Below, piece after piece: positions 28,729 through 32,263 of a stretch of DNA of 43,618 bases. Position numbers and translations under genes: made by a program. The stretch covers positions 1 through 43,618 of the forward strand of contig CALHVP010000030.1 of the NCBI GenBank assembly GCA_938038975.1, given 5' to 3'. Within the stretch, counting starts at the first letter, position 1. The number at the start of each line of letters is the position of its first letter. This DNA is from an uncultured Maribacter sp. (GTDB lineage Bacteria; Bacteroidota; Bacteroidia; Flavobacteriales; Flavobacteriaceae). Below the pieces are notes generated by a model, which was not told the origin of the DNA, searched no databases, and worked only from the letters and a program-made list of their open reading frames with translations.

Positions 28729-30162
28729 ATGCACCCAGCAACTATAAAGGATTTACTTAAAGGAAAAGAATTATTACAGGAAATAACTATAAACGGTTGG
28801 GTTAGAACCTTTAGAAGCAATCGCTTTATTGCTCTTAACGATGGATCTACAATAAACACTATTCAATGTGTGGTAGATTTTGAACAATTTAGTGAAGATT
28901 TACTTAAACAAATCAATACTGGTGCTGCCCTACAAATTACAGGAACCTTAGTTGAAAGCCAAGGTAGAGGACAGTCGGTAGAAATTCAGGTCAGCAAAAT
29001 ACACGTACACGGAACAGCAGATCCAGAAACCTATCCAATACAACCAAAAAAACACTCCTTAGAATTTCTAAGAGAGAAAGCACACTTACGAATAAGAACA
29101 AATACTTTTGCTGCAGTAATGCGGGTAAGATCTGCACTATCTTTTGCAATACACCAATACTTTAGAGACAACGGGTTTCAATATTTCCATGCACCAATAA
29201 TTACGGGTTCAGACGCAGAAGGGGCTGGAGAAATATTTAAGGTTACTACTTTAGACTCTAAAAATCCTCCTCTTACAGAAGAGGGAGAGGTTGATTATAA
29301 GGAAGATTTTTTTGGAAAAGAAACAAACTTAACCGTTTCCGGACAATTAGAAGCAGAGGCTTATGCGATGGCCTTAGGAAAAGTATATACCTTCGGCCCT
29401 ACATTTAGAGCAGAAAACTCAAACACTTCCAGACACTTAGCCGAATTTTGGATGATTGAACCGGAAATGGCGTTTTTTGATTTAAATGACAACATGGATC
29501 TTGCAGAAGATTTCATAAAAAAGGTTATTTCCTATGCACTAGAACACTGTTCAGACGATTTAGAATTTTTAGAAAAACGTTTAATTGATGAGGAAAAAAG
29601 CAAACCTCAAATAGAAAGAAGTGCCATGCCACTTTTAGAAAAATTGAAGTTCGTAACCGAAAACAACTTTAAACGCGTAAGTTATACTGAGGCTATAGAC
29701 ATACTTAAGAATAGCAAGCCTAATAAAAAGAAAAAATTCACTTACCCTATTGAAGAATGGGGTACCGACTTACAAAGTGAGCATGAACGCTATCTTGTAG
29801 AAAAGCATTTTAACTGCCCAGTAATCCTTTTTGATTACCCAGCTAAAATTAAAGCATTTTACATGCGTCTTAACGAAGACGGAAAAACGGTTAGAGCAAT
29901 GGATATTCTTTTTCCTGGGATAGGAGAAATAGTAGGTGGTTCACAACGGGAAGAACGATTGGACGTGCTTAAAGAGAAGATGGCTGCACTGGACATAGAT
30001 GAAAAGGAATTGTGGTGGTATCTAGACTTACGCAAGTTTGGTACAGCGGAGCATAGTGGTTTTGGACTAGGTTTTGAAAGATTGGTTCTTTTTGCTACTG
30101 GTATGGGTAATATTCGCGATGTTATTCCGTTTCCTAGAACACCGCAGAATGCCGAGTTTTAA
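28729..30162 (+). CDS. asnS: Asparagine--tRNA ligase
   Basis: The product is 477 aa. An N-terminal OB-fold anticodon-binding domain ([20 protein letters not shown]) is followed by the class II catalytic core. Motif 2 is [20 protein letters not shown] and motif 3 is [15 protein letters not shown]. The [15 protein letters not shown] form is typical of AsnRS, separating it from AspRS and LysRS. It charges tRNA-Asn directly. The gene is 41 nt upstream of rpoN on the same strand and probably heads an asnS-rpoN-membrane protein transcript. Confidence 0.97.
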
Positions 30163-30203: not shown

Positions 30204-31577
30204 ATGTTAAAACAGTTCTTACAATTTAAACTATCACAAAAGTTATCGCCTCAACAAATACAGTTGATGAAGCTGATACAATTACCTACACAGGCCTTTG
30301 AACAGCGTTTAAAACAAGAGCTTGAGGAAAATCCAGCATTAGAAACCGGAAAAGAAGAAGCAGAAAGTCTTACCGATGATTTTGAGGATGATTACGACGA
30401 CACTGATAATGAAACCATTACTGCAGAGGATATCAATATAGACGATTATCTGAGTGATGATGAAGTTCCAGATTATAGAACTCAAGCAAACAACTACAGT
30501 TCTGACGATGAAGAAAAAACAATCCCATATGCTGCTGGCACTTCGTTTAATCAATATCTTTTAAATCAGCTTAACACAGTATATCTTACTGATGAAGAAT
30601 GGTCTATAGCTGAATTTTTAGTAGGTAGTATTGATGAAAGCGGTTATTTACGCAGACCTATTTCAGATATTCTGGATGACCTTGCTTTTACGCAAAACAT
30701 ATATACAGAGGAAAAAACAATCCAACGAATTCTTTCTACCGTTCATGAATTAGACCCACCGGGAGTAGGTGCACGCTCGTTAGAAGAATGTCTAACTATT
30801 CAACTAGAACGTAAAACCGTTACTCCAGAAATAGAGCTAGCCATTGAAATCCTTAAAAAATCTTTTGATCAGTTTACTAAAAAACACTATCAAAAACTTA
30901 TTCAAAAACACAATGTTACAGAAGCTCAGTTAAAAGAAGCTATTTCTGAAATTGAAAAATTAAATCCTAAGCCAGGTGGATCGTACGCTGGAAACAATAG
31001 AATTGTTGAACACGTAGTGCCCGATTTTTCTATACGAATAGTTGAAGGAGAACTAGAGCTTACATTAAACGGAAGGAATGCACCAGAGCTTCACGTATCT
31101 AGAGAGTATAGTAATATGCTTAAAGGTTATAAAGAATCAAAGGACAAATCCAAATCCCAAAAAGACACTGTGCTTTTTATAAAGCAAAAGTTGGACTCCG
31201 CTAAATGGTTTATTGATGCTATTAGACAACGTCAGCAGACCTTGTTCATTACAATGAACTCCATAATGCACTATCAAAGTGAATACTTTCTGTCTGGAGA
31301 CGAGCGAAATCTAAGACCAATGATTCTAAAAGATATTGCAGACGAAATTCAGATGGACGTTTCAACTGTATCAAGAGTTGCTAATAGTAAATATGTTGAC
31401 ACCCCTTATGGTACAAAATTAATTAAAGAGTACTTCTCAGAATCGATGAAAAACGAACAAGGAGAAGACGTTTCTACTAAGGAAATTAAAAAGATCTTAG
31501 AAACTGTAATAACTGATGAAGTAAAGCGCAAACCGCTAACAGATGATAAACTAGCAGCCATTCTAAAAGAAAAATGA
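30204..31577 (+). CDS. rpoN: RNA polymerase sigma-54 factor, cut short by an in-frame TGA
   Basis: As read, this encodes 457 aa. Region I is normal (LKQFLQFKLSQKLSPQQIQLMK and PTQAFEQRLKQELEENPALE), and an acidic region II follows. The core-binding domain and the HTH-containing DNA-binding domain (ADEIQMDVSTVSRVANSKYV, about 390-410) are also present. The frame stops at TGA 31575-31577, immediately before the RpoN box. The downstream codons continue in frame to TAA 31656-31658 and encode the missing tail, so the intact gene would be 484 codons. Sigma-54 binds core polymerase and directs activator-dependent transcription at -24/-12 promoters. Without the RpoN box it should not recognise the -24 element. 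Identity is certain; whether the stop is real is not. Confidence 0.95.
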   Translation: MLKQFLQFKLSQKLSPQQIQLMKLIQLPTQAFEQRLKQELEENPALETGKEEAESLTDDFEDDYDDTDNETITAEDINIDDYLSDDEVPDYRTQANNYSSDDEEKTIPYAAGTSFNQYLLNQLNTVYLTDEEWSIAEFLVGSIDESGYLRRPISDILDDLAFTQNIYTEEKTIQRILSTVHELDPPGVGARSLEECLTIQLERKTVTPEIELAIEILKKSFDQFTKKHYQKLIQKHNVTEAQLKEAISEIEKLNPKPGGSYAGNNRIVEHVVPDFSIRIVEGELELTLNGRNAPELHVSREYSNMLKGYKESKDKSKSQKDTVLFIKQKLDSAKWFIDAIRQRQQTLFITMNSIMHYQSEYFLSGDERNLRPMILKDIADEIQMDVSTVSRVANSKYVDTPYGTKLIKEYFSESMKNEQGEDVSTKEIKKILETVITDEVKRKPLTDDKLAAILKEK

Positions 31578-31658
31578 TATCCTATTGCCAGGCGAACCGT
31601 TGCAAAGTATCGTGAACAACTCGGTATTCCTGTAGCGCGACTACGAAAGCAGATTTAA
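31575..31658 (+). pseudogene. rpoN: Detached C-terminal codons of rpoN with the RpoN box
   Basis: After the TGA at codon 458, 26 in-frame sense codons encode YPI, then ARRTVAKYREQLGIP (the RpoN box, invariant ARRTVAKYRE), then VARLRKQI, and end at TAA. In E. coli sigma-54 a glycine lies a few residues before ARRTVAKYRE, so TGA probably derives from GGA by one base change. The TAA overlaps the next gene's ATG by one base (TAATG at 31656-31660), showing that this is the ancestral stop. There is no further damage, so the change is very recent or an error. Confidence 0.9.
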
Positions 31659-32263
31659 TGAGAATTTTTCTTTCAATAGTATCTTATTTATTTCACCCAC
31701 TATTTATACCAATAGGCGGCACCATTGCATATTTCCTAGTAACTCCAAAATATACACCATTAGAAGTTCAAGCAGGAAATATCCTGCCGATTTTCATTCT
31801 AACAATTATCATCCCAATAATCACGTATTTAATTTTAAAAAATATTGGTGTAGTACATTCGATTTTCATGCCAACTACTGCAGAAAGAAAATATACTGTA
31901 GTAATTCATATCATTCTATTATTGATGGTAATTAACAAAGTAATTCCAAATAATTACTTAACCGAACTCTACTTTTACTTTGTAGGACTCCTTATCGCAT
32001 CATTTAGCTGTCTTCTACTGCTGTTTTTTAATTTTAAGACCAGTATTCACCTTATTGGTATTTCAGGTCTATTCATGTACTTAATAAATCTAAGCATACA
32101 TTTTGAAATAAACTTAGTTATAGCAATTAGCATTTTCTCCTTACTGATTGGTCTAGTCACATCCTCGAGACTTTATCTTAAAGCTCATACAAAACCAGAA
32201 CTATTAGCAGGTATTTTAATTGGTATGCTTTCCCAATTATTGACTATTAAATATTGGTTATAG
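31658..32263 (+). CDS. Multi-helix membrane protein resembling a degenerate PAP2 phosphatase
   Basis: The product is 201 aa with about six transmembrane helices. The C-terminal SRLYLKAHTKPELLAGILIGM aligns by eye with the third PAP2 motif (SR-x5-H-x3-D), but with Glu in place of Asp. The first two motifs (KxxxxxxRP and PSGH) are not recognisable; AERKYTV and HLIGISG occupy their places. It is probably a PAP2-like fold that has lost the canonical catalytic set, or a separate related family. The ATG overlaps the ancestral stop of rpoN (TAATG), implying translational coupling to full-length rpoN. The TGA in rpoN may therefore lower its expression. Its 3' end overlaps the convergent barrel gene by 6 bp. 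Confidence 0.7.
   Translation: MRIFLSIVSYLFHPLFIPIGGTIAYFLVTPKYTPLEVQAGNILPIFILTIIIPIITYLILKNIGVVHSIFMPTTAERKYTVVIHIILLLMVINKVIPNNYLTELYFYFVGLLIASFSCLLLLFFNFKTSIHLIGISGLFMYLINLSIHFEINLVIAISIFSLLIGLVTSSRLYLKAHTKPELLAGILIGMLSQLLTIKYWL

Follow-up and report, generated by a model that had tools for sequence, protein, structure and literature searches.

The rpoN locus

The DNA analysed here (the window, 43,618 nucleotides) is contig C30 of a marine Maribacter draft genome of 3,289,702 bases, which consists of 279 contigs and is 85.26% complete. Because the genome is fragmented, it was probably assembled from a metagenome. The closest named match is Maribacter antarcticus DSM 21422, with 90% identity, and the relatives are members of Maribacter and allied Flavobacteriaceae. 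In the window, a gene resembling asnS is followed by rpoN, which encodes sigma-54, and by an overlapping gene for a protein of 201 residues. The features of the locus are as follows:

28729..30162, + strand: asnS-like gene for a class II aminoacyl-tRNA synthetase, upstream of rpoN, intact
30204..31577, + strand: rpoN (translation table 11), 457 amino acids, with activator-interacting domain, core-binding domain and a DNA-binding domain that breaks off at profile position 134 of 160
31575..31577, + strand: in-frame TGA at rpoN codon 458, the position of a glycine in relatives
31578..31655, + strand: 26 sense codons past the TGA, including the RpoN box ARRTVAKYRE (31587-31616)
31656..31658, + strand: TAA, the normal rpoN end as judged by relatives; it shares its final A with the next ATG (31658)
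31658..32263, + strand: downstream gene, 201 amino acids, no match in Pfam or NCBIfam at an E-value of 0.001

In-frame translation of the 26 codons after the TGA gives YPIARRTVAKYREQLGIPVARLRKQI. The coordinates confirm the preliminary description of this DNA, in which rpoN stops at a TGA at codon 458 and continues in frame for 26 codons to a TAA overlapping the next ATG. Since this tail is the conserved C-terminus of rpoN, the open frame after the TGA is not due to chance. Frame and length agree with relatives on both sides of the TGA, which identifies it as a substitution and not an insertion or deletion. The conceptual protein ends four residues short of the RpoN box, which is translated only upon readthrough. 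With readthrough of the TGA, the Pfam profile Sigma54_DBD is covered from position 3 to 160 of 160; without it, coverage extends from 3 to 134, in agreement with the earlier claim that the box is lost. The Region I activator-interacting domain (PF00309, residues 3-47) and the core-binding domain (PF04963, residues 111-302) are present.

An own start for the tail was considered and rejected: none of the codons ATG, GTG or TTG occurs in frame within the 26 codons, and the ATGA at the stop opens a different frame that closes after 13 codons. The idea that the truncated copy is dispensable thanks to a second rpoN was likewise rejected, as no other Sigma54_DBD was found in the 85% complete genome. 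Searching viral contigs gave no copy of the rpoN locus, and a limited literature search yielded no mention of this particular allele.

The overlap of the downstream gene with the end of rpoN, also proposed earlier, was borne out, and 75 of 80 named loci likewise show start and stop overlapping by one base. The premature TGA leaves the downstream start 80 bases further on, so that any translational coupling between the two genes would be weakened and may be lost.

Codon 458 in related genomes

The position of the stop codon was assessed in 60 genomes, the own genome and 59 others, and in an alignment of the best 80 of 540 named loci found; the two sets overlap, and the collections compared hold one genome per species. 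All 59 other genomes match the read-through RpoN up to residue 483 or 484 and show no stop, two of them (G046 and G056) matching in two pieces. The own genome is thus the only one of the 60 with a stop inside rpoN. Among the best 80 loci, codon 458 encodes glycine in every case (GGA in 32, GGC in 25, GGT in 14 and GGG in 9). The alignment of relatives suggested in the preliminary description therefore shows the stop to be absent everywhere examined. The specific change from GGA to TGA proposed there stands in part: a single-base change is the simplest account, but the ancestral codon is not established, as relatives use all four glycine codons and the nearest relative, L032, has GGC.

To state the observation itself, the assembly carries a TGA that is missing from every relative examined, the tail behind it is conserved, and the draft contains a single copy of rpoN. 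Absence of the TGA from all these relatives points to a loss-of-function mutation that arose very recently or, alternatively, to a sequencing error.

Selection on rpoN and the age of the lesion

In the 26-codon tail, 10 codons differ from those of L032 synonymously and 1 nonsynonymously; the corresponding numbers for the rpoN body, whose synonymous sites are saturated, are 202 and 47. The one amino acid difference in the tail is a Q that is common to many other relatives. With seven outgroups, amino acid changes found only in the own sequence number 14-21, versus 13-21 found only in L032. Judged from these counts, rpoN here evolves no faster than that of L032, and no relaxed selection is seen. 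In the rpoN alignment of 81 rows, the TGA is the sole column at which the own row departs from 80 otherwise unanimous rows. The alignments of asnS (78 rows) and of the downstream gene (80 rows) contain no own-only changes at columns that are otherwise unanimous.

The substitution pattern relative to L032, the outgroup counts and the unanimous columns together indicate that the rpoN tail was under selection at the protein level until very recently, or still is. By a rough estimate, amino acid changes would be expected in a tail that had gone untranslated for as little as a tenth of the own branch. As far as sequence comparison can tell, the lesion has no detectable age.

Integrity of the assembly

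Open reading frames of the closest relative of at least 100 amino acids were compared with the own genome, using matches of at least 55% identity. This covered 116 genes with 39,600 codons on five contigs, or about 138 kb. Twelve of the genes were flagged; rpoN is the one case in which a stop lies over 20 residues away from both ends. In three of the others the stop falls among the first 18 residues, probably through the choice of start in the relative; three more have one 3 to 11 residues from the end, and five are cut by contig ends. No frameshifts were found among the 116 genes. As rpoN alone has a stop deep inside, the rate of such errors is not high. This clean sample lowers the chance of a single base error without removing it; a rate of one in several hundred kilobases is all that it would take. 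In ortholog pairs, the lengths differ by at least 15 residues in 9 of 110 cases, including rpoN.

Domain matches in the whole genome gave a similar picture: none of 37 matches to PF00005, 18 to PF00593 and 8 to PF00158 contains an internal stop. Comparing the window with five relatives led to the same result once shadow frames and upstream extensions were excluded; many entries with a stop and the one with a possible frameshift in this comparison belong to upstream extensions, or to shadow frames that lie within real genes or on the opposite strand of them. A match on contig C264 with two stops was dismissed as well, being a whole gene of 121 residues whose end was overrun by the alignment. 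Widespread gene decay was not seen in the window, the domain or the 116-gene comparisons.

Other components of the sigma-54 system

A search of the genome for sigma-54 activators had been proposed in the preliminary description. With PF00158, it gave eight matches, two near-complete (profile positions 1-167 and 1-168 of 168) and six weaker, and thereby two intact enhancer-binding proteins with a conserved GAFTSA or GAFTGA loop. Both are 87 to 93% identical to their counterparts in relatives of the same genus, with partial-length matches in G009 and G008. The one that carries GAFTSA in place of GAFTGA is a response regulator encoded on contig C110 (L112:1258-2421, − strand), in which the Pfam HTH domain was not found. 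GAFTSA is common to this protein in all nine same-genus relatives and in two of five relatives of the same order, the other three giving no motif output. Its ortholog in G009 (C1:997181-998340) matches in two pieces, one of which contains a TAA, and may be interrupted.

A third enhancer-binding protein is listed in all nine same-genus relatives (G001-G009), six of which were used to compare its gene neighbourhood. According to synteny, its expected place in the own genome is the gap between contigs C17 and C265: C17 ends right after the partner kinase, and C265 starts inside the next gene. The very end of C17 is a perfect 7-bp tandem repeat, ACCATCA, of 13.7 copies (C17:29779-29874; L243:5779-5874), which probably explains the break in the assembly. 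Because its place falls in an assembly gap, the apparent lack of the third protein is no proof of absence, and we rejected it as a sign that the sigma-54 network has been lost.

Scanning the own genome for the textbook promoter consensus TGGCAC-N5-TTGCW gave 1 site, versus 4 with N7 spacing and 0 for the reversed pattern. In 13 Maribacter genomes (the own and 12 others), the same textbook consensus gave 33 sites, versus 46 with N7 spacing and 21 reversed. Being rarer than the N7 control and somewhat commoner than the reversed pattern, such sites carry little information; sigma-54 promoters here may be few or deviate from this consensus.

Decoding of the premature UGA

Readthrough or recoding of the UGA would still yield functional, full-length sigma-54, perhaps in minor and regulated amounts, and the fully conserved tail past the TGA is in line with this. 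Several results speak against this. A conserved recoding is unsupported, with the stop in 0 of 59 genomes and 0 of 80 named loci (overlapping sets), and none of 30 tRNA hits carries a UCA anticodon (ARAGORN, with 150 of 253 candidates scored in a genome that is 85% complete). The base following the TGA is T, and T after a stop codon is a context for efficient termination. Additionally, with rpoN excluded, TGA ends 8 of 109 own genes in ortholog pairs (closest relative: 14 of 110), and it terminates 1 of 31 other genes of the window. It is thus a working stop here, if a rare one, and with its use as an ordinary gene end in both genomes, a reassignment of UGA was rejected. Recoding is unlikely, and we give it, together with readthrough, very little probability.

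Predicted properties of the truncated protein

According to excerpts of PMC7057263 and PMC2680985, contact with the promoter is divided: its −24 element is bound by the RpoN box and its −12 element by the HTH. The same excerpts back the role that the preliminary description had assigned to the box as the −24 contact motif, and solved sigma-54 structures span this region. The product of the allele would be a sigma-54 of 457 residues that lacks the RpoN box and keeps the activator-interacting and core-binding domains; it should fail to recognise the −24 promoter element. A real allele would thus most likely be a loss-of-function form. It may still bind core polymerase, since a reconstruction has been obtained of RNA polymerase bound to residues 1-424 of sigma-54, which lack the C-terminal domain (PMC2680985, in excerpt).

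That the truncated RpoN acts as a competitor, as had also been proposed, is speculation. Going further, one could imagine a naturally occurring sigma-54 able to bind core polymerase while blind to −24, a decoy or roadblock sigma rewiring transcription in this lineage; we give this reading very little probability. Loss of sigma-54 should be costly to the cell if the prediction is right that in Flavobacteria it controls ribosomal-protein and chaperone genes (PMC12316311, in excerpt).

Origin of the premature stop

Two explanations are nearly equal in probability. One is that the sampled Maribacter cells do carry a nonsense substitution, a very young one, in the sole rpoN found; we give this an even chance. 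Reading the base as real, we infer that the protein would be made and bind core polymerase, and that transcription by sigma-54 would be lost. The in-frame TGA with its conserved tail, the lack of this stop in the relatives examined, the otherwise sound-looking assembly and laboratory precedent for the loss of rpoN count in its favour. Retention of rpoN in every relative examined, the lack of relaxed selection, the predicted cost and the incompleteness of the draft count against it. The other explanation is a base or consensus error in the draft, or a minority strain variant picked by the assembler, with the organism carrying an ordinary rpoN; we put this slightly below even. Here, a single base in a single genome is concerned, while other own-only changes at unanimous columns are absent in rpoN, asnS and the downstream gene. 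The strong purifying selection on the tail, the two intact enhancer-binding proteins and the fragmented, incomplete state of the draft are also in line with an error. On the other hand, no other deep internal stop occurs in the 116 compared genes, a sample that is too small to exclude one error. Unrelaxed selection and the TGA as the sole deviating column fit a base error just as well as a young allele.

The observation is correct and of an ordinary kind, namely a nonsense substitution in one draft genome, and does not represent a new kind of system. If real, the allele would provide a naturally arisen sigma-54 mutant in promoter recognition, from a phylum in which this factor has been explored less, and the strain could be used to probe the role of sigma-54 in Flavobacteriaceae. 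An error would instead call for caution, as one base of a draft genome can mimic the loss of a regulatory system.

Comparison with known sigma-54 variants

Spontaneous damage to rpoN is known from Campylobacter jejuni, where evolution in broth gave rpoN deletions, between 21 and 8448 bases long, and motility was lost as well (PMC7677240, in excerpt). The C. jejuni lesions are deletions in another phylum, whereas the Maribacter lesion is one putative substitution in a draft assembly. The engineered E. coli sigma-54 1-424 (PMC2680985, in excerpt) likewise lacks the RpoN box and was seen with polymerase. It is shorter than the Maribacter form, whose cut lies within the RpoN domain immediately ahead of the box and for which core binding is predicted. 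With the RpoN family (TIGR02395; PF00309, PF04963 and PF04552), the truncated protein shares the activator-interacting domain, the core-binding domain and most of the DNA-binding domain. It covers TIGR02395 to position 409, not 434, of 434, and still scores above the cut-off of this family (342.4 versus 277.35 bits).
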